From positions 310,001 through 374,000 of the forward strand of contig NZ_LLWE01000024.1 of the NCBI RefSeq assembly GCF_001562055.1: a DNA stretch of 64,000 nucleotides, in the 5' to 3' direction. A program made the position numbers and the translations under genes. The stretch is from Polycladidibacter stylochi (GTDB lineage: Bacteria > Pseudomonadota > Alphaproteobacteria > Rhizobiales > Stappiaceae). The first letter of the stretch is position 1. Each line of letters begins with the position of its first letter. Shown here piece after piece: positions 3,471 to 20,108 of this stretch. Below the pieces are notes generated by a model that was given only the letters and a program-made list of their open reading frames with translations, was not told the DNA's origin and did no database searches.

Positions 3471-4700
3471 ATGCTGCAGGGTAAACGTATTCTTCTTGTT
3501 ATCACAGGAGGGATTGCCGCCTATAAATCGCTGGATCTGATAAGGCGTTTGAAAGAACGTGGAGCCACGATCAGAACTGTCATGACAAAAAGCGCATGCC
3601 AGTTTATCACCCCCCTGGCAGTTGAGGCCCTAAGCGCAGATAAAGTATTTATTGAGCTGTTTGACCGTGATGCGGAGCATGATGTTGGGCATATTCGCCT
3701 CTCAAGAGAAGCAGATATTGTCGTCATCGCCCCAGCAACAGCCAATATGATGGCCAAGATGGCAAATGGCATAGCTGATGATTTAGCTTCATGTATGTTA
3801 CTTGCCTGCGACAAGCCAGTTTTACTTGCCCCAGCAATGAACTCGAAAATGTGGTCGCATCCGGCCACAAAACGTAATTATTTGCAATTACAAAAAGATG
3901 GGCATCACTTCATCGGGCCCAATAGCGGAGAGATGGCCGAAAAAAATGAAGCTGGTGTGGGCCGCATGGCAGAGCCGCTAGAAATAGTGGCTGCTATTGA
4001 ATCTTTTTTTGTACCCAAAAAACAACCGCTAGCAGGCAAGCATGTGCTTATAACTGCGGGGCCAACACACGAGCCAATTGACCCTGTTCGCTATATCGCC
4101 AATCGCTCTTCAGGCAAGCAAGGGTATGCACTTGCTAAAGCCGCCAGAGAAGCGGGTGCTAAGGTGACACTTGTTTCCGGTCCAGTTAATTTGAAAGCAC
4201 CAGAAGGCGTCACTTGTGTTTCAGTGGAAACTGCTAGCGAAATGCTCACTGCATCTGAAGCTGCTTTGCCGGTAAATATTGCTATTATGGCAGCAGCGGT
4301 GGCGGATTGGCGTACTGAAGAAAGTGGTCAGAACAAGTTAAAAAAGGATGGTACGGGTACTCTGCCATCATTTGCACTTGTTGAAAATCCCGACATCTTG
4401 CGCAATATCGCCAGCTCAACAACAAATCGACCCGAATATGTTGTTGGTTTTGCAGCAGAAACAAACGACCTCATAGCGAATGCCCAGTCAAAGCTGGTCA
4501 GAAAACAAGCGGATATGATAGTTGCGAATGATGTACGCCATGAGAACAATGTGATGGGGGGAGACGAGAACACTGTACACGTAATTACCCGTGATGAGGT
4601 GACCAGTCTGCCAAAAATGAATAAAAACGATGTAGCAGGTAATTTGATTGAAATAATTGCCAAAGCCTATGAAAAACAGTTCGGCTCCTGCTCCAACTAA
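3471..4700 (+). CDS. coaBC: Bifunctional phosphopantothenoylcysteine decarboxylase / phosphopantothenate-cysteine ligase
   Basis: A 409-residue fusion of the two coenzyme A pathway steps after pantothenate kinase. Residues 1 to about 180 are the FMN-dependent decarboxylase (CoaC): GGIAAYKSLDLIRRL, the catalytic His region SHPATKRNYLQL and the substrate clamp PAMNSKMW are visible. Residues from about 190 are the ligase (CoaB): LITAGPTHEPIDPVRYIANR and SSGKQGYALAKAA. The C-terminal KLKKDG...LVENPDIL and GFAAET motifs are in place, so both halves look active. An ATG start at 3471 is preceded by AGGGAGCAAATCAT. A long hairpin ends the unit at 4704-4754. Confidence 0.96.
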   Translation: MLQGKRILLVITGGIAAYKSLDLIRRLKERGATIRTVMTKSACQFITPLAVEALSADKVFIELFDRDAEHDVGHIRLSREADIVVIAPATANMMAKMANGIADDLASCMLLACDKPVLLAPAMNSKMWSHPATKRNYLQLQKDGHHFIGPNSGEMAEKNEAGVGRMAEPLEIVAAIESFFVPKKQPLAGKHVLITAGPTHEPIDPVRYIANRSSGKQGYALAKAAREAGAKVTLVSGPVNLKAPEGVTCVSVETASEMLTASEAALPVNIAIMAAAVADWRTEESGQNKLKKDGTGTLPSFALVENPDILRNIASSTTNRPEYVVGFAAETNDLIANAQSKLVRKQADMIVANDVRHENNVMGGDENTVHVITRDEVTSLPKMNKNDVAGNLIEIIAKAYEKQFGSCSN

Positions 4701-4703
4701 AAC

Positions 4704-4754
4704 AATTGCCGGTAAATGATGGCTAACGTCATTCAAAATCATTTACCAGCAATT
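4704..4754. terminator. Bidirectional terminator between coaBC and the barrel gene
   Basis: Left arm 4704-4720 and right arm 4738-4754 pair over 17 positions with a single mismatch (C/A at the sixth pair). The convergent arrangement of coaBC and the outer-membrane protein gene suggests that it serves both strands. Confidence 0.7.
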
Positions 4755-4770: not shown

Positions 4771-7700
4771 TTACATCTTCACAATCATATTGGCGAAGAT
4801 GCCCTGACTGCGATAGTCCAGCTCGGTCATGTCTTCCGAGACATGGCCCCATTCGTAACCAATGCCGATTTTCAGATTCTTAGTAATATGCCGATAAACG
4901 CCAAGCACCGCGCCGAAGGACAAAGTTTCATCCTCTTCCGAGTACATGAGGCGGCCATCACTCATCACATCCCAGTTGTTCACCACGTGCCAGTTTAGGC
5001 GCGCGATGCCCAGATGCGCCGTGTTGCTCTTGTAATCTTGTGTGCCCCGCTGCGCCACGAGAGACTGGCGATAACCATACTTGCCGCCCAATGTGAAGTG
5101 GCTATTCAAATCATAATCCGCATCAATGGAAAACACATGACTTTTCTGTGAAGGGCCGTCTTTGTCACCGCTTGCATTCACCTGATCTTTGCTTGGTAGA
5201 TCATGCAGATACGTGTATTTGAACAACACATTCAACCGCTCGTCTTCAATCGGGCGGAACGCATAACCAAGGCTCGCTTTGGCATAGTCGCCATCAGCAA
5301 TCGTGCTTTGATTGTTATTGGAAAAAAGCGCATCAACACTACCGATAAAACGGCTGGCCTCTGACTGCTTGTATTCGAACCCGCTGATCAGCGCCCATGT
5401 GTCAACTGTTCCGCTGGTCCCATCCTCATACCGGTATTCCCCCTTCACGTGGGCGCTCAAAGCCTCTTCATCGGAGAAAGCGACACCAAGCGAAATCGCA
5501 TCGCGGTCAAAATCACCGTTGTTACGATCGCGTACCCGGCCACTCTCTATTGCGCCGGAATAGCTCCAACGCTGTGAAGGTGTATAGGTAAGTCCGGCGG
5601 CTCTGGTTTGCGATTGCCTCTTTCCAAATAGATCAAAGGTGTTTTCAGCAAAGGCATTTGCTGCCTCCGAATAGCGATAGTTACTACCCAGAACCAGCTT
5701 ACCCATATCTGTTCCAACCAGTTTGTAACTGTCCAGCGTGCGCGTCGGATCGAGTGTGTAGCCCATATAGAACTCGCGGTCTTGCGCTTGCTGGTAGTTT
5801 AGCAGCGCCGATGCGCCCAAGCCGCTGCTGCCACCCGAGACATCCCCCGAAACAAGCAGTTTTTCGCTCAAGCGCGTCTGTGCGCCAACACCAAGGCGAT
5901 CAGCGCGCTCCAACCCGCCGCGGCGAAAAACTGTCGCCTGCCCAAACAGCCACAGCTTACTATCCTCATCATAAAGGCGGGTCGCACGGGCGCTTACATC
6001 CTGCCGCTCACCGGATTTGCTTGCATCTTTCAGCTTATCTGCTTTCAAATAGTTTGCAGCGCCTTCCAGATTCCACTTTTGGTTCAAGGCGTATGCAAAA
6101 TCAGCGGCCACACTCTGCTTGCGCTCTCCCCCCTTTTGCCGATAGCTTTCGGCTTCAACACCCGCACTTAGGCGCTCGCTTAGCTTTGTCTGCAGCCGCC
6201 CACCAATCAGGACTTCATCTTTTTCGATGTTGCGGCTAAGCGTAGAAAAGCCAGCCTCTGCGCTTTCCATGTAGAGATTGACCAGACCACTTTGCGAGAT
6301 GCCCAGCTCTTGCAAATCCAATTGGCTATCCAGCTTATAGGCCATCGCTGTACCTCGCGATTTGCTAAGCTGTTCGGTGATGCTAAGCCCGCCATCCGTA
6401 GACTGGGCAAGGCCAAATCCCGGCCCATGGCTGCCTGCCACCTCTGCGGTAATGTGGCTGACTTCACCCAGTTTGACAGTCAGGTCAGCGCCGCCCATTT
6501 TCTGGTCTGCTGCCCCGGTTGTCTCCACCATGCCAGTTGCACCAATGCGAACATTATCGCTCAGCCAGCCTTCAGCACGGGCGCCATAAGAATACCCTTC
6601 CACATCACTAAAACTGGGTGTGTACTCATAGCGTACGACCAAATTAACATCGTAGGCACCGGCGGCACCGCTGACCAACGACCCATCAGAACTGCTAGAG
6701 TTCAGCGGTTTTGCAAGCTTGATGATTCCTTGCGTATAGTTGATTTCATAGTCCGTTGAGGCGGTAAGCGGTTGTGTTGCCACTTTGCGCCCCGTATCTG
6801 GATCAACGGTTTCTATATAGACTGTTTCCGAGCCCACATTGATATCTTGATGCGAAAGGAACAGAACCGATCCCCCGGTTCCGCGCAGCACATCGGTTTG
6901 TGGTAGAGTATCGGGCTTGGCACCATAGGCGGAAATAGTGGCGCGAGGTTTTCCGCCCGCTGTTCGATCCGCGCTCTCACTGCGAAACTCCGCTCCGTAG
7001 AGGCTGCGGCTGCTATCCAGTAGCTGAGTGTTGTTGCCCGCGGTTTTGAAATCTCCCCACAGCGCTGAAGTGCCACCGCGCTCGGCCTTGACATAAACAC
7101 GGCCAGAACTGGGGGTGTCGTCATAGCTGGTGCTGTCATCGCCATAGGTCGGGTAAAGGTCGTCAGATTTTAAGCGATCCAGATAGGCATCCGGGTTCTT
7201 TTCATCCAGACGCCTGAAAATCGTTTCCAGGTCTCCTTCTCCAGTGTCTGCTGAAGAAGTAATCGTCCAACCACCCTTTGTTTTGCCTTTTATGTAATAG
7301 GCAACCCGTCCTTCTGTTTTTGTTTTTTCAAAAAGTGGGTCAGCTTCGCTCGCGGTGTTTTGCAGGCTATGGGATGCTGTTACGTCGATAATACCGACGC
7401 CATGCCATTCAGACCTGGGAATTTCGACTGGTAAGGTCTTATAGCGCTGCTGGCCAGAAGAGACGTACTTTATCTCTACCTCGTAGTTGCCTGCAGGCAA
7501 ATTACGACTGTAAAGGAAGTCTCCGGAAGGCTCTACAAGAACTGTTTCACCCATGATGTTGAGAGGACTATCAGGGTCTACCTGGCCGCTTACAACCAGC
7601 ATTCCGCCTATAAGTGGGATGCCACGACGCCACGTCTGATCAGTTGTTGACTGTTGGTTTACTGTGTTTTCAGTGTTATTATTCGTTTTCGTTCGTGCAA

Positions 7701-8247
7701 CTTCGTCTGATATTGAAATGGTCTGCGGTGCGGTTTCATCGTACCGACCCTCGGCATCGTACACACGTACGCTATAGCTGTACTGTGCGGAGTTGGAAGT
7801 CGGTATTTTCCACGAAGCTTCATAGTTAGCCGTAAGGGGCAATACCGCGTGTTCGCGTGTAAAAACACCATTGGGTTCTCGAATGATTACTTCGGCCCGA
7901 TTAATAAATTTGGAATAATTCAGCTTTGCAGAAAAGGTAATGGTTTCACCATTGGCATAGTGAATTCGCTCATCTTCCACCGTAATTGCAAGGTACCGGT
8001 TTACTTCTGTTCCTTTGAGTTGTGTCTCAAAATGAGCGGTATCAGCCCTCGAATGCTCCTCAACATCTTGGGGAGCATTTAGGGTTTCAGTAGTTTCGAA
8101 GATAATCGAGAAATCTTGCCCACGAAGCGAAGCATGCGCCTCAAATCCGCTATAGCAAAAACTAGAGGTAATTACTGTGGTAAATATCAACTGTACTTTC
8201 GCAGTTGAGCCAAGTAAGCGATTACAAAACTTATTATTCTTATTCAT
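4771..8247 (-). CDS. Outer-membrane beta-barrel protein paired with the DUF11 surface protein
   Basis: A 1,158-residue exported protein. A signal-type N-terminus (FCNRLLGSTAKVQLIFTTVI, then FCYSGFEAHA) is followed by Ig-like segments (about 65-290), among them SYSVRVYDAEGRYDETAPQT and LPAGNYEVEIKY. A highly characteristic block near residues 350-420 contains the motif SDDLYPTYGDDST followed by GRVYVKAERGGTSALWGDFK. From about residue 500 the protein becomes alternating polar/aromatic strands of outer-membrane barrel type (for example VRIGATGMVETTGAADQKMG, SRFIGSVDALFSNNN, HFTLGGKYGYRQSL). It ends NMIVKM rather than in the usual terminal Phe or Trp. It starts 8 bases after the stop of the DUF11 gene, with no clear ribosome-binding site, so translational coupling is likely. 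I infer that it holds or presents the DUF11 protein at the surface. No named family function is claimed. Confidence 0.75.
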   Translation of the reverse strand: MNKNNKFCNRLLGSTAKVQLIFTTVITSSFCYSGFEAHASLRGQDFSIIFETTETLNAPQDVEEHSRADTAHFETQLKGTEVNRYLAITVEDERIHYANGETITFSAKLNYSKFINRAEVIIREPNGVFTREHAVLPLTANYEASWKIPTSNSAQYSYSVRVYDAEGRYDETAPQTISISDEVARTKTNNNTENTVNQQSTTDQTWRRGIPLIGGMLVVSGQVDPDSPLNIMGETVLVEPSGDFLYSRNLPAGNYEVEIKYVSSGQQRYKTLPVEIPRSEWHGVGIIDVTASHSLQNTASEADPLFEKTKTEGRVAYYIKGKTKGGWTITSSADTGEGDLETIFRRLDEKNPDAYLDRLKSDDLYPTYGDDSTSYDDTPSSGRVYVKAERGGTSALWGDFKTAGNNTQLLDSSRSLYGAEFRSESADRTAGGKPRATISAYGAKPDTLPQTDVLRGTGGSVLFLSHQDINVGSETVYIETVDPDTGRKVATQPLTASTDYEINYTQGIIKLAKPLNSSSSDGSLVSGAAGAYDVNLVVRYEYTPSFSDVEGYSYGARAEGWLSDNVRIGATGMVETTGAADQKMGGADLTVKLGEVSHITAEVAGSHGPGFGLAQSTDGGLSITEQLSKSRGTAMAYKLDSQLDLQELGISQSGLVNLYMESAEAGFSTLSRNIEKDEVLIGGRLQTKLSERLSAGVEAESYRQKGGERKQSVAADFAYALNQKWNLEGAANYLKADKLKDASKSGERQDVSARATRLYDEDSKLWLFGQATVFRRGGLERADRLGVGAQTRLSEKLLVSGDVSGGSSGLGASALLNYQQAQDREFYMGYTLDPTRTLDSYKLVGTDMGKLVLGSNYRYSEAANAFAENTFDLFGKRQSQTRAAGLTYTPSQRWSYSGAIESGRVRDRNNGDFDRDAISLGVAFSDEEALSAHVKGEYRYEDGTSGTVDTWALISGFEYKQSEASRFIGSVDALFSNNNQSTIADGDYAKASLGYAFRPIEDERLNVLFKYTYLHDLPSKDQVNASGDKDGPSQKSHVFSIDADYDLNSHFTLGGKYGYRQSLVAQRGTQDYKSNTAHLGIARLNWHVVNNWDVMSDGRLMYSEEDETLSFGAVLGVYRHITKNLKIGIGYEWGHVSEDMTELDYRSQGIFANMIVKM

Positions 8248-8255
8248 TTTTACAA

Positions 8256-11200
8256 CTACATAGTACTGGAGAGGGACTTTTCAAAGGTGAGGCGCGCAGT
8301 GTTGCCGGTTCGAGATCGCAAATAAGTCTCCACATCAGCCAGCATCTTATAAGCACGTTCTTTTTGTGAGGCAGTTTGCTCACCACGTGGCAACATAAAC
8401 TCAAGCTTGATAAGAGCTGTCTTGGCCTCAAGTTGCTGCGATAGCCGATCTAGGGCTTTTCGTAGGGGGCGGCTAAGGCGATTACCTCGTACTGCGTCAC
8501 CACCAACGCGTATGACTACGCGCTTTGATTGAGCAACACCGAAGTTTAATTCGCTCATTTTACCTGGAGTGAGGCGTACAACCCTTGGGTTCTCGGTAGT
8601 TACATAGAACCCTTTCGGCAACGAGCGTGTATCCAGCTTCAAGATGAAGTTAGAGCCACGGCCTTTAGGAAGCATGGCGCAAGGTACATGGTAGCGCCCA
8701 AAAGAATCGCTGGTAATAATAGTGCCATCAACGCCCATCAAGCGGGCAGCTGGCATCCCTTTTTCGACAACGCCTTTTCTTGGTGGATTTTGATAGCCAT
8801 CCTCATTCACATCATGAAAGACTTTTCCGTAAACATCGCCGCAATCAAACACATGCTCGGGCAGTAAGCGTACTGTTGCCTTAGCTTTAGGCGCGAGCAG
8901 CTCTTTCGTAACGCTATGTTTCAACACGGCTTGGTTGGTGTGTTCTCCTGCATGTGCTGAGATAAGAACCCGCCCATTAAGCGTAATTGTCATGGTCGCA
9001 TTAGGCGAGATGTACAGATTATCCAGAGTGGTTACACGCCCATTGACTGTTACGGGCCATTTGGCCCCATCGACCATTGCTGTTTCTTTCACAAAAGCAA
9101 AATCAGCGGGCATGATATCAAGCAGGGTCATCGGTCCGGTGGTACGCGCCAGTTTACTGCGAATGGTGATGGTGTACGGCACCACTGCACCGCGCTCTAC
9201 CGTTTGAACACGCGTGGTTTTTGTTAGCTCCAGATAGCTATCAAGAACAACAGGTGCCAAAGGATAATCTGTTGGATCATCGGTTGTGTTACCATCAAGG
9301 TCATCACCATCATCTGATGCGTCCGTAATCAGTGTAGGGTTACGAGGAATAACTAAAACGTAGATTGGCAACGCTGTTGCAGTTGACTGCAAATGTGTGC
9401 CTGTGCCGTCCACTGCTGCTGCGGTTAGAGTAAATGATGCTGTATACGTTGCTGTTTCGGCGATTTTGAGCCGACCAGCGGAAGAGCCGAGTGACGCACT
9501 GACAAATGCTGGCATGCGGTCTAACTTTAGCTCTGTTTTGCCATCAAGTGTTGTAAACACCTCTGAAAGAGCGAGCCCTTGCAGCGGCGTATTGCCTGTG
9601 TTTTCAACTGTGATTGTGTAGGTAATAACGTCTGCGACCCCATCGATACCGTCACCATTGTCGCGAAGCACCTGCGTTGTCGTCACCTCAAGGCTATCAA
9701 TTGCCGCCTGTACAACAGTCTCGGTCGCGCTTGCGCAGATTGCCGGATTGTCTTTGCGGCAAATCTGATAGGAGAGCTTGTAGTCGCCAGCAGGCTTACC
9801 GGGTGCCAAAGTAATCAGCCCCGTTGCAACATCAAGTGTAAGCCCGTCATCCGCGTTAACTTGTGCCAGCGTTACATTGGCCAAGGTTGCAGGTGTGCCG
9901 CCCAAGCGATCTGACGCTAAAACCGTAGTTGTTGTCCCCCCATTGCTGAAAATAGGCGGATAGGTTTCAGGATGCGCCTCGATAAACACAAGACCTGTTT
10001 CAACCGTATCGCTATCTATCACCTCTAGCGGATCGCCGGTTGACGAGCTTCCGTAAGTCCCAGTGACGGTGGCTGTATTGCTAAGACTATCCAATGCGGC
10101 AGTGCTAGCATCGACAAGGAGTTTACCGGTATAACTGGTGCTATCTGTTGCACCCGGCGCAAGGCCATCGATCGGTGCGCCGCTTAACCCCGCGCCGAGC
10201 AGCGGGTCGCTGAGGCGCACGTTGTTGAGTGTGACACTGCCGGTATTTGTAATTTCAAAGGTGTAGAAAATCTCGTCGCCAGCCTCGACCTGACCTTTAT
10301 GGTGCAAGTGAGAGGTATCCGCCCTTTTTACCAGCTTAATCGCTGGCTGGATCCCAACTGTAGTTTTTGTTGGTTCATCATTATCTATCGCTGTTCCCGA
10401 GATATCTGTGTAGGGCGTGGAACTGCTATCATACGCTGTAACAACGGCGCTGTTGGTAACACTTGCAGTATCAAGGTCAGCCTGTGTAAGGGCATATGTC
10501 GCTGTGATGCTGGTGCTATCACGCCCCTCCGGTGCCAAAGTCGCAATCGGGCCACCACTTACAACAACACCGCTAAGCGTATCGGCAACCGAGATATTGT
10601 AAAGCTCCACATTGCCCGTATTGGTGATCTCGAAAGTAAAGCGGATCTGCTCACCAACCTTTGCGGGGTTACTCAAGGCACTGGTATCGGCTGTTTTGAC
10701 TAGCGCCACTGACGGGGCACGCCCGAGCACGGTCACAGTTGGCGTATCATTGCCTGCGTTGGTTCCCGAAACATCTTTGGTTTTTCCGCCGAAAGGATCG
10801 ATCCCTTCCACGGTGGCACGGTTGGTCAGTGTGCCTCGGTCCACATCAGTTTGCTTGAGGGTGTAACTGGCACTGTAGCTACTATTATCGGTGCTGCCCG
10901 GCGCCAATGAGGCGATCGGAGCACCGGTCAGCACAAGATCTGCCATCGGATCTTGTAGAACAAGGTTTTTCAGCGTAACACTACCACTATTGGTGATGGC
11001 GTAGGCGTAGGTGACAACCTCTCCGGCTTTCGCATCAAGCGACACAGCTGAAGTATCTGCGGTTTTAACCAGTGTCACAGCCGCAGTATGCGCTGCGCTG
11101 ATCGGTGTTGGATCATCTTCGCCGCTATCATCCGGGCGACCATTGCTGTTTGGGTCCGGGTTCGTGCCATTATCACTTAAATCAGTCAGCAAGAAATAAT

Positions 11201-14200
11201 CGGAATCCACTTGGCCAGTGAGCGCACCCAGCGCTTCCACATAGGATTGGGTGTTGTAACTAAAGCTGGAAGCTGTACTTCCTGCGCTTTTGGTTGCCGG
11301 CATAACCCGCATCTCAACGGTGAACGTACAGCTGCTCGCAGCTGCCAACGTTCCCCCCGATACCAAGGTTTTATCGCTGCTCCCGTTAAAGCCACCATGT
11401 AGGCCAACGCAACTGCCCGTAGGCGCACTCAACACTGCATAACTGCCGTTTGCCATTGGCGCGGTGCGTGGGTCTTCCCCGCCGCTGAAACTGTGATAAC
11501 TCCCCAACGCATCACTGGCCGCAGTTAGATCAGATGTGATCGCAACGCTTTTGAGCGGATCAACGGAGAAGTTCTCCAACACATAGCTGGTGGTAAATGT
11601 AAACGAGCCATCCACCGCGATGGTAGGCCCTGCACTGACATATTGCGCAAGGCCAACACGCGCCTGCGGAATGACAGTAAAATCATAGCCTGTCGCATCT
11701 GTCTTTTGTGCAAGCGTAATGGCGCTCACTTTATCTGCAATTGTATTGATACCACCTGAAGAGCCTGCCCGGCTCAGCCCGTCGACCAGGAAGCCTTCAG
11801 CTGTTGAGCCTCGCGTAACCTTGTAGGTACCCTCTGGAATATCTTTGAACAGATAGGTGCCATTTGCATTCGTAGTGGTTGAAAGATTAACCGCTGCGCC
11901 TTCCAAAGAGGTGCCGCTAAGGCTGACAGCTATGCCGCTCGCACCATAATCTTCCGCTTCTAAAGTGCCATCATTATCAAAATCATAGGAGACAGTCCCC
12001 GCAATGGATGAAGCGACCACAGTCACACTGCCCGTTGCAGTATTATTGCCATGGTCATTATCGAATGACTTTTTCGATTTGATAGAGGCAGTATTACTCG
12101 ATGTTTTCCAGAGCTGAGTTTTACTGTTTATTTTTACAGGAATGAGAACTTCTACAGTACCTCCGCTTTCAAAGGTACCAAGGTTACACTTAAAAGATGC
12201 CCAATCACTTGTATTTGTACATTTGGTTGAGGTTACAAAGCTGGTACCTGAGATAATAGATGGTAAGCCAGTGAGCACCATTCCGGCTGGCAGCTTATCT
12301 GAGACAATTACCCCATCTGCTTCACGAAGGCCGGGACCCGTTTTATTATGCAATGTGAGTTTGTAAGTGAATGGCTCATTCAAATCCACCTCAGCTTTAG
12401 AGGGGACTTTGCTAATTACTTCCACATCTGCGCGCGTTAGCATGGTAGTGGTTTCACTAGCACTGTCATTGGCAGTATTGGTATCAGAGCCAGCAGTCAT
12501 AGCTGCAGAGCTTAATGCAGCGGTTGTTGTAATCGTGCCCTTGTCTTCGCCTTGTGCTTTGACAATCAGGCTATACACTTTTCCGCTATCAAATCTTGCA
12601 AATCGACAGGTTAATACGCCTCCGTAACTGCCAACGGCTGGTAGCGGATCACATATAATATCGCCTGAATCAATACCTGTACTGGTAAGAGACTGAAATG
12701 ACAAAAGATTTGGCGGTAAGCTATAGGTTAGTAGTACATTTTCGGCAAATGATGGTCCTACATTTTGCACTTTAATTGTGTAATGAGTACTTGTGTTAAC
12801 TTCCAAAGGGTCAACATCATCGGAGTTATTCACGATGAGGTTAAATCTAGGTGCTGTAACTTGAACGCTTTTGCTAGCCGTATTGCTCAAATATGGCAGT
12901 TCAGCTGTGCTGGTGGTAGCCACGGCACTCGCCACTATCGCAATACCCTGCATCGCCTCCGGTGGCTCAACGGTGATAACAGTTTTCTTGGACCCTCCAG
13001 TACTGATAGTCCCTAGATCACAGATCACTGTTTTGTTCGCTGATGTAATCAGCTCGCCATTTGATAATGACGTACTGCAGGTGCCGGCCGAAGTAAGTGA
13101 GTTGAAATAAACACCCTCTGGTAGGGTAATACTAACATTACTGTTATCAGCATAACTAAGATAGCGATCCGATGTCGGGTTGCTAACTGTAGTTGTAAAA
13201 CTGACTTTTTGGCCAGCTGGTGAAGAGGCCTTGGCTGTTAATTGCGTTAAAATGTCTGTAACAGGCGACACACTATAGGAAATACTTGCTTCGTTATTGG
13301 TTAAATCAGGATCGGCAATTCCGTAGGAAAGAACCGTGACGCTGTTAGAAAGGATTTTGCCGTTGTTTAGTCCTGATGCAGGCCGCACATCCACTAGAAC
13401 TTTAGGGCAATCAACACCAGTGGAGCACTTGGGTACTGAGGCGATAGTACAGTCAAGCTCAACGCGTCGATCCCCGGATTTTTCAGTACAACTACCTCCT
13501 CCTGCTAAGGCTGAATTGAGTTGCATTTGGTATTTTAGATAGCCAGTATCTGCTGTATCGCCAGTTCTGCTGTTTAGCAAATCTGTCAAGTGATCAGTAA
13601 TGCGCACATTGGTAGACGTTCCAGGGCCATTGTTGACCACTTCAATGCCAAAGGTCTGCACACCACCAACTGCCAATGGATCGTGTGCGGCTGTCTTCAA
13701 TACAGTAATATCGGCATAGTTTACAGCATCATGGACTTTATAATCATAGTGGCCACCTGTATGGCCATCTGGCCACGAAGGAGTACTAGCTGTAGCCGTG
13801 TTGCTGGCATCACCAGCAGCGGTGGCGGTTACTGTAAGTGTAAGCGGTGTGGAAGAGGTCCCCACAGCTAGTGGGTTGGTGGCGTCATAGGCTTTTGAAC
13901 AAGTAATATCTGAAGGCCCTGCAATTGGTCCTGCCGGGCACGTCCAGCCATTGCCTGCAAACCCTGTATATTCTAGGCCTGCTGGTAAATGGTCGGTAAG
14001 GCTCAATTTTTCTTTTAATGAAGTGTTGCGATTGTTTTTTACCTGCAACTTAAATTTATAGCTTTCACCAACCGCTAATAGCGCTGGCGAAGGTCCTGAT
14101 TTTGATACAGAAAGTTGGACAACCGGATCTTCTAGTTTGTGTTTGATATCGTAGGCATCGTTGTCGGTTAAATCCGGATCATCGGGAGTAAAACCACCCA

Positions 14201-15443
14201 TAACAACGTAGTTTTGTATGTCTGTTGCCGTCTTGGTGATTAAGGCAGAAATTTCGACACTACCTAGCGGCATATTTTCGCCGCCTATAAGTGCATCAGA
14301 AGGTCGGGAGCATTCGACAATTTGACCGCTGTAGCTACAACTCCACCCACCAGAAGAGGAGCTTACACCTTTAATTTTATAGGCATCTGCAAGCGTTGTT
14401 TGAAACTGTAAGCCTTGGGGGGCACTACCTGTGTAGGTCCCACTAACAGTAAGAGTAGCAGTTTCGCCTACCAACCCCAATGTTCCAACAGAGTTGGACA
14501 GAACCACGTGTACATCTGTCCCATCAGTTACGCTTACGCTATGGGATGCCGAGTTATTAGCATTATTGTTATCAGTTGTACCCTTTGCAGATACTGTGCC
14601 ATTTAAAGTGTACTCTGCACCAAGGCTGAACAGCTTGGTTACCCGCCCAGAAATATGCAAGCTTTTACTTGCACCATTTGCAAGGGCGCTCGAAATATTA
14701 CAGGAATAAGAACCATCACCATTGGCAAGGCAGCCAACAGGGACATTGCTGTAGGAAAAACCGTCGATTACTGGCAGTTGCAACTCCATTTGCCTTGAAT
14801 CTTTCGGGCCATTATTGGTGATTTTATAAGTGTAATCGACGATAGCACCGCTAGCTGCGATTACTGGACCAGAGATAGCCAAAGAAAGATCTGTCTGATC
14901 TGGGTCCGGAGGAATACCGGGCCCTGCAATAATGGTCGTTCCTTCCGTCCAGCTATTATTGCGATCAAAGCTGTCGGCATCGTTTGGCAAAGTCACCTTA
15001 AGATTAATGGACCCCTCAGCCCGAGCACGCATGATAATTTTAAAGCTAATAACTTCGTCAATGGCCAGCGCGGGAATATCGCAGCTATTAAGAATTGGCC
15101 CGTCCAGTGGTAGCGCATTTTTACAACTCAAACCGGTTATCTCAGTTAGCCGCGCTCCATCGGGGACCGCAACCTCGAGAGTTGTTGCGCTAGAAGGAGT
15201 TGAGCCCACGCCAAAAGGAGAGTTGGTAATTGTTACATCGTAGTTAATGTAATCGCCTGCAGGAGATGGGTCATATGCCCCGTCAGTCACGTCTAAAACA
15301 AGATCGTAATTCCCTGCCATTGCAGGAGAGCCAAAGCAAAGAACAATACTGAGTAGGCTAAAAAAAAGGAAAGATTTTATTTTAATTTGAAGTCTGGAGC
15401 TAGCAGTCTTGACTAATGTAGACAGCGATAACACACCGTGCAT
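8256..15443 (-). CDS. Giant DUF11 / Ig-like repeat surface protein
   Basis: About 2,395 residues. An N-terminal signal (SFLFFSLLSIVLCFGSPAMA) is followed by roughly eight DUF11-type beta-sandwich modules (to about residue 1170), recognised by the recurring [YF]-T-x-T-[VI]-x-N-x-G-P core, for example IVDYTYKITNNGPKDS. Next come an SdrD B-like domain (YDFDNDGTLEAEDYGASGIA, about 1175-1265), three tandem copies starting LVK[TR]ADTS, more DUF11 modules, a second SdrD-like domain (GKVFHDVNEDGYQNP, about 2200-2270), and a C-terminal segment resembling a degenerate OmpA-like domain (RPLRKALDRLSQQLEAK). There is no LPXTG, no autotransporter barrel and no obvious type I secretion repeat. A GTG at 15455 is possible, but the ATG at 15443 has GTGGAAT upstream. 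Composition changes along the gene suggest domain shuffling. The likely role is an adhesin or surface-layer stalk, by inference only. Confidence 0.8.
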   Translation of the reverse strand: MHGVLSLSTLVKTASSRLQIKIKSFLFFSLLSIVLCFGSPAMAGNYDLVLDVTDGAYDPSPAGDYINYDVTITNSPFGVGSTPSSATTLEVAVPDGARLTEITGLSCKNALPLDGPILNSCDIPALAIDEVISFKIIMRARAEGSINLKVTLPNDADSFDRNNSWTEGTTIIAGPGIPPDPDQTDLSLAISGPVIAASGAIVDYTYKITNNGPKDSRQMELQLPVIDGFSYSNVPVGCLANGDGSYSCNISSALANGASKSLHISGRVTKLFSLGAEYTLNGTVSAKGTTDNNNANNSASHSVSVTDGTDVHVVLSNSVGTLGLVGETATLTVSGTYTGSAPQGLQFQTTLADAYKIKGVSSSSGGWSCSYSGQIVECSRPSDALIGGENMPLGSVEISALITKTATDIQNYVVMGGFTPDDPDLTDNDAYDIKHKLEDPVVQLSVSKSGPSPALLAVGESYKFKLQVKNNRNTSLKEKLSLTDHLPAGLEYTGFAGNGWTCPAGPIAGPSDITCSKAYDATNPLAVGTSSTPLTLTVTATAAGDASNTATASTPSWPDGHTGGHYDYKVHDAVNYADITVLKTAAHDPLAVGGVQTFGIEVVNNGPGTSTNVRITDHLTDLLNSRTGDTADTGYLKYQMQLNSALAGGGSCTEKSGDRRVELDCTIASVPKCSTGVDCPKVLVDVRPASGLNNGKILSNSVTVLSYGIADPDLTNNEASISYSVSPVTDILTQLTAKASSPAGQKVSFTTTVSNPTSDRYLSYADNSNVSITLPEGVYFNSLTSAGTCSTSLSNGELITSANKTVICDLGTISTGGSKKTVITVEPPEAMQGIAIVASAVATTSTAELPYLSNTASKSVQVTAPRFNLIVNNSDDVDPLEVNTSTHYTIKVQNVGPSFAENVLLTYSLPPNLLSFQSLTSTGIDSGDIICDPLPAVGSYGGVLTCRFARFDSGKVYSLIVKAQGEDKGTITTTAALSSAAMTAGSDTNTANDSASETTTMLTRADVEVISKVPSKAEVDLNEPFTYKLTLHNKTGPGLREADGVIVSDKLPAGMVLTGLPSIISGTSFVTSTKCTNTSDWASFKCNLGTFESGGTVEVLIPVKINSKTQLWKTSSNTASIKSKKSFDNDHGNNTATGSVTVVASSIAGTVSYDFDNDGTLEAEDYGASGIAVSLSGTSLEGAAVNLSTTTNANGTYLFKDIPEGTYKVTRGSTAEGFLVDGLSRAGSSGGINTIADKVSAITLAQKTDATGYDFTVIPQARVGLAQYVSAGPTIAVDGSFTFTTSYVLENFSVDPLKSVAITSDLTAASDALGSYHSFSGGEDPRTAPMANGSYAVLSAPTGSCVGLHGGFNGSSDKTLVSGGTLAAASSCTFTVEMRVMPATKSAGSTASSFSYNTQSYVEALGALTGQVDSDYFLLTDLSDNGTNPDPNSNGRPDDSGEDDPTPISAAHTAAVTLVKTADTSAVSLDAKAGEVVTYAYAITNSGSVTLKNLVLQDPMADLVLTGAPIASLAPGSTDNSSYSASYTLKQTDVDRGTLTNRATVEGIDPFGGKTKDVSGTNAGNDTPTVTVLGRAPSVALVKTADTSALSNPAKVGEQIRFTFEITNTGNVELYNISVADTLSGVVVSGGPIATLAPEGRDSTSITATYALTQADLDTASVTNSAVVTAYDSSSTPYTDISGTAIDNDEPTKTTVGIQPAIKLVKRADTSHLHHKGQVEAGDEIFYTFEITNTGSVTLNNVRLSDPLLGAGLSGAPIDGLAPGATDSTSYTGKLLVDASTAALDSLSNTATVTGTYGSSSTGDPLEVIDSDTVETGLVFIEAHPETYPPIFSNGGTTTTVLASDRLGGTPATLANVTLAQVNADDGLTLDVATGLITLAPGKPAGDYKLSYQICRKDNPAICASATETVVQAAIDSLEVTTTQVLRDNGDGIDGVADVITYTITVENTGNTPLQGLALSEVFTTLDGKTELKLDRMPAFVSASLGSSAGRLKIAETATYTASFTLTAAAVDGTGTHLQSTATALPIYVLVIPRNPTLITDASDDGDDLDGNTTDDPTDYPLAPVVLDSYLELTKTTRVQTVERGAVVPYTITIRSKLARTTGPMTLLDIMPADFAFVKETAMVDGAKWPVTVNGRVTTLDNLYISPNATMTITLNGRVLISAHAGEHTNQAVLKHSVTKELLAPKAKATVRLLPEHVFDCGDVYGKVFHDVNEDGYQNPPRKGVVEKGMPAARLMGVDGTIITSDSFGRYHVPCAMLPKGRGSNFILKLDTRSLPKGFYVTTENPRVVRLTPGKMSELNFGVAQSKRVVIRVGGDAVRGNRLSRPLRKALDRLSQQLEAKTALIKLEFMLPRGEQTASQKERAYKMLADVETYLRSRTGNTARLTFEKSLSSTM
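9990..11085 (-). repeat. Three tandem ~370-bp repeats inside the DUF11 gene
   Basis: Three consecutive modules of about 123 residues begin near 11,070, 10,700 and 10,330 (minus strand) with TLVKTADTS, ALVKTADTS and KLVKRADTS. Each continues with a [FY]-x-[FY]-x-I-T-N-[ST]-G-[SN]-V core and a G[AG]PI..LAPG..DS.S motif. They are diverged at the nucleotide level, so duplication is not very recent. Confidence 0.75.
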
Positions 15444-17719: not shown

Positions 17720-18043
17720 ATGGATATAGCGCAATTGGAGCAAAACGCAGAAGAAGCAGCAAAACTACTTTCTTCAATGGCGCATCCAAAACGTTTGATG
17801 GTGCTTTGTAAACTATTGCAAGGTGAATGTGCTGTAGGAGACTTGGCACAGAGTGTTAATTTAAGCCAGTCAGCATTAAGCCAACATCTTGCAAAAATGC
17901 GAGCCAATAATCTGGTGAATACGCGACGCGAAGCACAAACGATCTATTACTCTCTTGCCAGTAGTGAAATTGAAGCTGTCTTAAATACCTTGTATGGCCT
18001 CTATTGTGCACCAGAAAGCAACGAATTAACGGGTATTTGCTAG
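17720..18043 (+). CDS. ArsR-family regulator resembling SqrR/BigR sulfide sensors
   Basis: A 107-residue winged-helix repressor. The DNA-binding core is LSQSALSQHLAKMRANNLVN followed by TRREAQTIYYSLAS. Two cysteines lie where the persulfide-sensing pair sits in SqrR and BigR: Cys30 in LMVLCKLLQGE and Cys96 in LYGLYC. Two further Cys (37 and the final residue 107) are extra. The ATG at 17720 follows GGAAACT and begins MDIAQLEQN; an upstream in-frame ATG at 17654 adds a Cys-rich tail unlike the family and has no ribosome-binding site. No sulfide oxidation gene adjoins it, so its targets are probably elsewhere. Metal sensing cannot be excluded. Confidence 0.85.
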   Translation: MDIAQLEQNAEEAAKLLSSMAHPKRLMVLCKLLQGECAVGDLAQSVNLSQSALSQHLAKMRANNLVNTRREAQTIYYSLASSEIEAVLNTLYGLYCAPESNELTGIC

Positions 18044-18089
18044 CAGAACCTTATCGGGTAAGCGCACCAACACGTGATAGAGTTGGCAC

Positions 18090-20108
18090 TCAGCGGTGTA
18101 TCGGCTTGTCACCAGCTAGAATAACGTCGACCCCGTTTGTGCGTTGATGTAGAAGAGCGCCGGGGAAAAACTTTAACAAAGCTGCAACATTTGGCTTTGT
18201 TTTTTCCTGTGTTAATGCGCTTAGCTCTCCAAAGGGGCGTAGGGTTTTCTCCTGCTGTAGTGCCCCAACGTACAAGGGCGCTGCTTTGTCATCTTCACTT
18301 TGTATCTTGAATTGCGTTGTCCAAATCCAGAGAACTTGGCGATGCTCTTTATCGATTTGGCGCACCATAACGAGTGCGGGCAAATAACCCATATGCGTGT
18401 GAGGTACGGGGGGTAGAGCAGTTATTGGTGTTTGCCCTTCCAAGTATCCGCTAAAGGAAGGTATATTCCAGCTGGCCGCGGCCTGCCAACCTTGTTGACT
18501 GAGCGAATCCTGCAAGGAAGATAACTTTCCAAACCACTGGAGAATAAGGTCTTCTTCTAACTCACCAGATAAGCTAACCCTTTGCATGGGTAGCTTTTCC
18601 CAGCCTTCATTTAGCCAATTGGCAAGCCTTAATGCTTTAACTTTATGATGTGGTTGGTAGAGGTGAGCTGTATTTTCAAAATGTTTTGGCACATACCAAA
18701 AGCCGGCAATAGTGCATGCACCGATTGTTATTGCTGCAAGAGCATTTCGTCCAATTTTCTCATTGTGTATATGGCCGAATATAAATGCAAAAACACTAAC
18801 TAAAGCGGCACCGAAAATAAGCCCGGCCAAAACATCGGATGTCCAATGTACACCAAGGTATATACGGGCAAAGCCCACTAAAATTGCATAGGATGCAGCC
18901 AATGAAAACACCAATGCCCGGATTTTTCGGCTGCGCTCATGAGCAATTAAAACGGCAATAGTACCAACAAGGACAGTGGTTATTGTTGCATGGCCAGAAC
19001 TTAGCGAAATGTAGTCAGGCCCTTTGCTCAAATCAATGTTATGGCCACGGCTAAATAAGCTCTTCATGACCATAACAAAAACGGCTGAACTGCCTATGGT
19101 AATCAGTAGCCCGATGCCACGTCGCCAAGCTTTTCTTAGAATGAGGTAAATACCCGCGCTTAAAGAGACACAAAGAACGACAAAGCCACTACCGAGTAAA
19201 TAGACCGGAATCATAATGGCATCGAGCTTGGGTGAACGAACAAGTTCAAAAAAGTTATTAATAGCCAGATCAGCGCGTACCATGGTCATGCCAGGCGTCA
19301 CATTACCAATGAACCAGAAAAACAAAGGCAGTAATACCAAAAGGACAACTGCAGAAACCAACATACCTACGGAACGAGGATTATCCGTATCATAAGTTTT
19401 GGCTATCCATTGAGAGGGGCGGTCAGGACGCGAAGCAAACCAGTTTACTAATGCTTGGTGAGTGCCCCCGAAAATTGGAAGAATAAAGAGAACAAACCAA
19501 CGAACAAGAACCACAGCGATAAAAATTGCAACACATAAACCGCCGAGTGCAATTGCGAGCCTTGTATTAATCTCGCCTACCGCAAACAAGGCTGAACCGG
19601 CCATAACGCCAGGCACAAGGTGAAGTGCAGACCAAGCGAATGCTGAGCTCACGTTAAAAACTGAAAACCTGATAAAATTCATATCAGCCATTCCAGCAAT
19701 TCCGGGTACGACTGATTTTACACCAGGAACAAAGCGGCCAATAAAGATGCTCTTGCCACCATGCTGGGCAAAGTAATCCTCACCTTTTTGCAACCACTCT
19801 GGATACTTGTTGAGCGGCCAGATATTTCGAAGCCTACCTTTAAATGTATAACCAACCCAATAAGAAATAGCGTCACCCGTAACGGCACCTGCTGTTGTCC
19901 AAATGAATAAGGGCCAAAAGTCCAGTTCGCCTAAGCCAATTAGCGTACCGGCCCCCACCAGCACGACAGTGCTTGGGAAAAACAGCCCAATGAGAAAGAG
20001 AGCTTCTCCCATTGCGACGAAAAAACATATAAACCCCGCAAACGCTGGGTTGGCAGCAATGAAATCTACGATGCCACTTAAAAAGTTACTTATAAAATCA
20101 ATAGGCAA
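18090..20108 (-). CDS. DedA - PAP2 phosphatase - LssY C-terminal fusion membrane protein
   Basis: A 672-residue inner-membrane protein with three parts. Residues 1 to about 205 are a DedA/SNARE-associated domain (MGEALFLIGLFFPSTVVLVG; GRFVPGVKSVVPGIAGM), a class of lipid-flippase-like proteins. Residues about 265-455 are a PAP2 lipid-phosphatase domain with SLSSGHAT and ARIYLGVHWTSDVLAG, which keep the catalytic His residues and Asp. Motif 1, usually K-x6-R-P, reads K-SLFSRG-HN and lacks its Arg-Pro. The rest (about 480-672) is an LssY C-terminal domain (LRLANWLNEGWEKLPMQRVS). The start is TTG at 20108. A role in envelope lipid dephosphorylation or turnover is likely from the family. It converges on the ArsR gene. 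Confidence 0.86.
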   Translation of the reverse strand: MPIDFISNFLSGIVDFIAANPAFAGFICFFVAMGEALFLIGLFFPSTVVLVGAGTLIGLGELDFWPLFIWTTAGAVTGDAISYWVGYTFKGRLRNIWPLNKYPEWLQKGEDYFAQHGGKSIFIGRFVPGVKSVVPGIAGMADMNFIRFSVFNVSSAFAWSALHLVPGVMAGSALFAVGEINTRLAIALGGLCVAIFIAVVLVRWFVLFILPIFGGTHQALVNWFASRPDRPSQWIAKTYDTDNPRSVGMLVSAVVLLVLLPLFFWFIGNVTPGMTMVRADLAINNFFELVRSPKLDAIMIPVYLLGSGFVVLCVSLSAGIYLILRKAWRRGIGLLITIGSSAVFVMVMKSLFSRGHNIDLSKGPDYISLSSGHATITTVLVGTIAVLIAHERSRKIRALVFSLAASYAILVGFARIYLGVHWTSDVLAGLIFGAALVSVFAFIFGHIHNEKIGRNALAAITIGACTIAGFWYVPKHFENTAHLYQPHHKVKALRLANWLNEGWEKLPMQRVSLSGELEEDLILQWFGKLSSLQDSLSQQGWQAAASWNIPSFSGYLEGQTPITALPPVPHTHMGYLPALVMVRQIDKEHRQVLWIWTTQFKIQSEDDKAAPLYVGALQQEKTLRPFGELSALTQEKTKPNVAALLKFFPGALLHQRTNGVDVILAGDKPIHR

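Follow-up and report, generated by a model that had tools for sequence, protein, structure and literature searches.

The stretch of Polycladidibacter stylochi DNA analysed here (contig NZ_LLWE01000024.1, positions 310,001 to 374,000; 64,000 nucleotides, hereafter the window) carries two adjacent genes on its minus strand. One encodes a giant exported stalk protein (the giant) and the other a very large predicted outer-membrane barrel protein (the barrel). Both open reading frames (ORFs) lie where the first-pass annotation of this DNA had placed them, with the sizes it had given and a gap of 8 nt from the giant gene to the barrel gene. The two proteins probably keep a giant fibre on the cell surface in a manner not yet described. 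The two genes are:

8256..15443, minus strand: giant CLIPPER/DUF11 stalk protein, 2,395 amino acids (aa) from its ATG (ORF; Pfam and NCBIfam matches)
4771..8247, minus strand: predicted outer-membrane barrel partner, 1,158 aa (ORF; Pfam; AlphaFold2)

The mechanical ORF of the giant begins upstream of this ATG, at a GTG (15455). All eight genome-wide DUF11 matches reported fall inside the giant ORF, and one barrel match was reported.

The giant is built of tandem modules and two SdrD-like domains, as the earlier annotation had described. There are 11 DUF11 stretches (PF01345, E 7.7e-78), overlapping matches of Pfam DUF7507, and NCBIfam places the isopeptide domain TIGR04226 in two stretches (E 5.4e-8). 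CLIPPER/DUF11 stalks are recognised by DUF11 domains repeated in tandem along a long exported protein, and this is what the giant presents, its export being judged by eye from the signal peptide. Its parts are as follows:

15315..15443, minus strand: Sec-type signal peptide, residues 1-43, AMA/GNYD (by eye)
11733..12005, minus strand: first SdrD-like domain, residues 1147-1237 (PF17210 SdrD_B, E 1.6e-11)
10044..11087, minus strand: CLIPPER_2-type (DUF7507) repeats with a Lys-Asp-Asn pattern, approximately residues 1453-1800 (Pfam DUF7507, five stretches, the best at 1576-1680; residues by eye)
8535..8894, minus strand: second SdrD-like domain, residues 2184-2303, with the Cys pair C2201/C2255 (profile and AlphaFold2)
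8259..8534, minus strand: degenerate OmpA-like C-terminal tail, residues 2304-2395 (AlphaFold2 fold, hhalign and tail hidden Markov model, HMM)

Pfam sees one SdrD_B domain, at residues 1147-1237. The second comes from the profile, which matches SdrD chains of the PDB with E values down to 4.5e-8, and from the AlphaFold2 model, which agrees. C2201 and C2255 are invariant across 48 aligned sequences. Lys, Asp and Asn stand at fitting positions for predicted isopeptide bonds in seven domains, as judged by eye (448/484/548, 583/617/700, 1012/1049/1117, 1460/1498/1541, 1583/1621/1664, 1706/1746/1789 and 2075/2109/2170).

The giant had been described as lacking any means of its own of staying on the surface. 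This overlooked the OmpA-like domain at its C-terminus. The AlphaFold2 model suggests a strand-helix-strand-helix-strand fold for the tail (DSSP, model residues 258-345), with a predicted local distance difference test score (pLDDT) of ~90. An hhalign comparison with OmpA gives E 0.0013-0.0017 over 61 columns (Prob 15-18); 24 of the 30 fetched OmpA loci were used, nine of those 24 being dropped because the frame held stops. The tail HMM also overlaps a canonical OmpA match in a relative (L195, E 2e-3), and there are relatives with a match to Pfam OmpA (PF00691) at the end of the giant itself, such as L188 (E 5.3e-12). The structure search of the C-terminal model hardly probed the tail (model residues after 257), as Ig and SdrD-like domains filled the match list. 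Among separate giants, 88 of 90 have the tail; 91 frames were classed as such and 89 had it, one being recognised by the tail alone.

The second gene was predicted to encode a protein with a barrel-like C-terminal part, and this is borne out. The match to Pfam OMP_b-brl is marginal, at 28.9 bits against a cut-off of 28.7. AlphaFold2 does predict a barrel (pLDDT 80.8, predicted template modelling score 0.76), with a run of transmembrane-length strands, ~40 in number. The protein is divided as follows:

8134..8247, minus strand: signal peptide, apparently Sec-type, residues 1-38 (by eye)
7414..8043, minus strand: two N-terminal Ig-like domains, residues 69-278 (strands 34-141 and 167-238 of the mature model; found in split relatives)
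6919..7413, minus strand: first six predicted barrel strands, together with a long loop that carries the conserved motif, residues 279-443 (DSSP, strand list)
7129..7155, minus strand: YPTYGDDST motif, residues 365-373, in a low-confidence loop (invariant residues; pLDDT <50 at mature 323-337)
6655..6918, minus strand: small beta insert between predicted strands 6 and 7, candidate plug, residues 444-531 (AlphaFold2 model; conservation)
4777..6654, minus strand: 34 further predicted transmembrane strands, residues 532-1157 (AlphaFold2 model, strand list; covariation of neighbours)

The unusual motif noticed earlier, SDDLYPTYGDDST, is present, and five of its residues (Y365, P366, G369, D370 and S372) do not vary among 13 aligned sequences, one of them the window's. 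The long loop and the insert are among the better conserved parts of the protein, mean column conservation being 2.96 at mature residues 421-480 compared with 2.53 at 481-1120. Neighbouring predicted strands covary. The model alignments, but not the covariation, imply a single closed barrel of ~40 strands with its first and last strands paired. The family has no NCBIfam model, its profile finds no PDB sequence match up to E 0.1, and a viral fold library returned nothing useful. A viral origin was also considered and set aside, as no relatives were confirmed in viral contigs (15 pattern stretches examined).

Two variations on the barrel were noted among relatives. A Pseudovibrio barrel (L045, G004, 9312-12707) is some 32-36 residues shorter than the window's, approximately one predicted beta-hairpin, as if two strands had been lost in frame. 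At L053 and L054, from the related genomes G211 and G079, the barrel gene is broken and runs over two frames.

A genome scan confirmed at least 564 relatives of the barrel. The 80 closest were examined and are biased towards the window's arrangement. Among these best 80 of at least 564, the giant's C-terminal region lies in a separate frame directly upstream in 66 (broken copies included), and seven stand at contig edges. Two further samples were not picked by closeness to the window. In 337 class genomes, the barrel was found in 12 and the giant C-terminal region in 15 (12 of these over more than 200 profile positions), with both in 11. In 398 Pseudomonadota genomes, each was found in 57 and both in 54, leaving three with the barrel only and three with the region only (Fisher p 3e-59, uncorrected for kinship). 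Plasmid records repeat this association, as 20 of the 21 with a barrel also hold the giant C-terminal region.

The earlier annotation had proposed that the pair is a split version of a one-chain arrangement. This is upheld by the 64 barrel places in the 398 genomes, of which 34 have the giant's end in the same frame (fused) and 23 come after a separate giant, with no giant near the other seven. Four of these seven are in frames that run off the contig end (L218, L223, L225, L229) and two are short fragments (G584, G604). The fused places are not independent, one family (f202) accounting for 20 of the 34. The count of 64 omits second pieces of counted genes in G644, G436, G472, G205, G732 and G743 and extra giant matches in G732, G436, G445 and G559, with no genome lost from the counts. 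In the fused frames listed, SdrD precedes the barrel, giving the order stalk, SdrD, OmpA where present, and barrel. A tree of the conserved part of the barrel, built from the earlier, mostly alphaproteobacterial loci (101 of 104 sequences, three identical rows merged), requires two changes for six fused forms, which may have had a single origin. A contig filed as a metagenome-assembled genome of Ilumatobacter (Actinomycetota; L074) has a barrel that nests among alphaproteobacterial ones, and is probably mis-binned.

The third recurring part is the OmpA-type module, seen in 49 of 68 loci. In some loci it closes the giant, as the degenerate tail or a canonical OmpA domain, and in others one to three copies stand at the N-terminus of the barrel. 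Fused chains can have it after SdrD and ahead of the barrel, and it may also be encoded by a separate gene close to that of the barrel. Of the 26 split loci that show the giant, 25 have such a module; the exception (L049) has a weak tail (E 0.16). Many fused chains have a canonical OmpA domain where the tail would be. In L175, also a fused chain, only ~40 residues separate SdrD and barrel, and the tail and both Ig domains are missing. The one-frame fusion in G622 (L192) nonetheless keeps its Ig domains and the tail (E 7e-4, below the cut of the 68-locus count). A rule that the OmpA-like tail occurs only where the genes are separate, drawn from 0 of 5 fused frames with a tail, was dropped after wider sampling.

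In four Vibrio-type loci (L190, at 11920-12825, L195, L214 and L216), a third gene of ~300 aa with two OmpA domains directly follows the barrel, and the giant stops just past its SdrD domain. The third gene of L190 has a lipoprotein-like N-terminus by eye.

Conserved pairing, fusion, recurrent OmpA-type modules and the predicted folds are the observations to be explained. The explanation that we favour, and consider fairly likely, is a two-gene fibre-display system in which a giant with a periplasmic anchor reaches the outside through a dedicated giant barrel or is held by it. A stalk, a wall-binding-type module and a very large barrel stay together and also occur as one chain, which points to one envelope-spanning display unit. 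The giant would be a stalk in which Ig-like CLIPPER and SdrD-like domains follow one another in tandem, with Lys-Asn isopeptide bonds and disulfides likely locking many of them, and its signal peptide suggests that it would pass the inner membrane by Sec. Its far end would remain periplasmic as an OmpA-like domain, because OmpA-type modules act in that compartment, as is established for OmpA. The barrel, with ~40 predicted strands, two putative periplasmic Ig-like domains and a plug-like insert, would offer a docking site to the base of the giant. The stalk would then project outward, most simply through the wide barrel lumen or beside it, since the order of the fused chains is stalk then barrel. 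By our own estimate a barrel of ~40 strands would be ~7 nm wide and could admit folded Ig domains. In other lineages, the stalk, SdrD, OmpA where present, and barrel would work within one chain in an autotransporter-like manner. In this scheme the giant would be exposed at the surface, be threaded through the pore and serve as an adhesin. The first-pass proposal that the barrel anchors or exports the giant stands as far as a dedicated partner is concerned, given the pairing and fusion; export of the giant by the barrel is an inference.

A more far-reaching version is considered less likely than not. The pair may represent a display machine of the outer membrane that forms a class of its own and is common across Pseudomonadota, with a single-chain barrel of ~40 strands, which would be more than the 36 of SprA, serving one giant client. 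It would pass or protrude folded, isopeptide- and disulfide-locked Ig domains while an OmpA-type module ties the base to the wall, the three parts having been fused, split and re-shuffled in evolution.

The earlier annotation had likened the pair to intimin or two-partner arrangements, and neither label fits. The passenger of a type Va autotransporter is N-terminal and its barrel, of 12 strands, is C-terminal, whereas the barrel of intimin is N-terminal. The fused relatives share the type Va order, with passenger and C-terminal barrel in one chain. They differ in the ~40 predicted strands and in the OmpA module often found between passenger and barrel. The inverse autotransporter was rejected on this C-terminal position, and neither IAT_beta nor Autotransporter is listed for the window barrel by Pfam up to E 1 (YadA_anchor, E 0.18, is below cut-off). 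Two-partner secretion (TpsA/TpsB) also joins two adjacent genes for a large exported partner and an outer-membrane barrel; here the stalk is Ig-like rather than a beta-helix, and the giant has its own periplasmic-type OmpA anchor. TpsB and Omp85 were rejected as POTRA, ShlB and Bac_surface_Ag are unmatched in the window barrel (Pfam, up to E 1).

SprA/Sov of type IX secretion offers another very large single-chain barrel, known for SprA to have 36 strands. SprA complexes stand at Foldseek ranks 5 and 6, with a template modelling score of only ~0.18. The SprA family TIGR04189 has no match in the window barrel up to E 1 (NCBIfam), and the fused relative L056 gives an SprA match far below cut-off (E 0.35). 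The chaperone-usher protein FimD has the highest VIA Z (15.2; root-mean-square deviation 8.8, 350 aligned). Ushers such as FimD and PapC have an insert after the sixth strand, as is predicted for the window barrel, in which the Usher model of Pfam has no match. The pair lacks the tested defining features of the type Va, type Ve, TpsB, usher and SprA families, yet by analogy it would work like a split autotransporter with a C-terminal barrel.

A close counterpart of the giant is the Acinetobacter silvestris adhesin B9T28_05395 (PDB 9IFR; PMC12617251), which combines a tandem DUF11/CLIPPER stalk and an OmpA-type C-terminus in a Gram-negative surface protein. The 9IFR structure matches, in the AlphaFold2 model, the Ig domain at the base of the window giant. 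In passages of PMC12617251 no barrel partner is mentioned, and the term "outer membrane" occurs 0 times in its main text. The window differs in the degenerate state of its OmpA-like tail and in encoding a dedicated barrel alongside, which relatives may have fused to the giant.

Several results weigh against the proposed display system. PF00691 has no match in the window giant up to E 1, the homology of tail and OmpA being weak by sequence, and no OmpA-type module was seen in 19 of the 68 loci, 12 of them fused chains of ~1.7 thousand aa. Pfam and NCBIfam recognise no ligand-binding or adhesive domain in the giant. Closure of the barrel is seen only indirectly in the AlphaFold2 model, where porins align from approximately residue 241 to 1120. 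In two covariation runs the pairing of first and last strands does not stand out (ranks 59/361 and 115/361), and there may be two smaller barrels instead of one. Giant-barrel distance correlations (r 0.46-0.74) are positive everywhere, do not favour a tail-Ig contact and are confounded by species history. Finally, seven of the best 80 of at least 564 relatives have no giant within 4 kb. These are a minority, and neither outcome that would have refuted the first-pass reading, barrels regularly lacking a DUF11 partner or a structure prediction with no barrel, was observed. All seven genomes hold the giant C-terminal region elsewhere (in two pieces in G401, as partial matches only in G403), and six of the seven barrels form one Phyllobacteriaceae clade in the barrel tree. 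Five of the lone barrels, from Nitratireductor/Chelativorans (L103, L111, L114, L115, L137), adjoin the same biotin-carboxylase-like gene (by eye) on the opposite strand, and this shared neighbour suggests that one old relocation is likely.

The unproven closure of the pore leaves some room for a pure anchor, in which barrel and OmpA-like tail fix the giant's base within the envelope and the stalk surfaces by another route. OmpA-type modules recur beside the barrel, and its conserved loop and insert fit docking as well as transport. A separate route is hinted at by L042, where a PrtD-type type I secretion permease/ATPase gene (17811-19532; TIGR01842, E 3.9e-207) lies ~5.4 kb downstream of the barrel, which also counts against display through the barrel. 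However, no secretion gene turns up repeatedly at one position in the flanks of related loci. The widest flank family (15 loci, at scattered distances) was joined by single linkage and mixes various ABC ATPases; L042's, the one tested by family, is confirmed as type I secretion. As the stalk immediately precedes the barrel in one-chain relatives, in autotransporter order, a pure anchor is judged unlikely. Wall-binding OmpA-type modules, whether they end the giant or belong to the barrel, would also suit a periplasmic skeleton, with the giant staying inside and linking cell wall to outer membrane, in the manner of Deinococcus SlpA (PMC9388160). This is improbable, since a dozen or more tandem Ig-like domains, if extended, would far exceed the periplasm, and isopeptide-locked CLIPPER repeats are, according to PMC12617251, typical of exposed stalks.

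A barrel that works on its own as a TonB-type receptor or porin and happens to share the operon can be given very little credence. This reading draws on the public label "TonB-dependent receptor", carried by 7 of the 20 plasmid records holding most of the barrel. This label was rejected, as no TonB receptor or plug model is among the Pfam and NCBIfam matches up to E 1, and the pairing, fusion and co-occurrence with the giant also speak against it.

To our knowledge, the display route of DUF11/CLIPPER proteins in Gram-negative bacteria is not clear. Literature searches found no paper describing the giant-barrel pair. A stalk with an OmpA anchor is a known idea; no publication was found on the dedicated barrel family or on how its members are paired and fused. 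Public records often name these barrels a TonB-dependent receptor or a hypothetical protein, yet 57 of the 398 sampled Pseudomonadota genomes have one. If the two-gene display system is correct, a common route for displaying giant fibres on Gram-negative cells has been overlooked, and a membrane partner would be supplied for part of the DUF11/CLIPPER proteins.

At five Pseudovibrio loci, including L040 (12411-13427), L041 and L045, the barrel is followed after ~170-280 bp by a gene for an AraC-type regulator of 338-349 aa; these loci represent three genomes, two loci repeating the same contigs, and the window has no such gene at this place. In the window, a promoter and terminator scan gave counts no higher than in shuffles, and a tRNA scan found no tRNA genes. 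One further feature was read from the sequence directly after the barrel gene:

4698..4753, minus strand: terminator-like hairpin, 16-bp stem and T run

Its loop exceeds the limit of the terminator scan, and it is not in that output. A DEAD-box helicase gene lies upstream of the pair and a converging coaBC gene downstream (both named by eye from the sequence), and with these neighbours the giant and barrel genes look like a transcription unit of their own.
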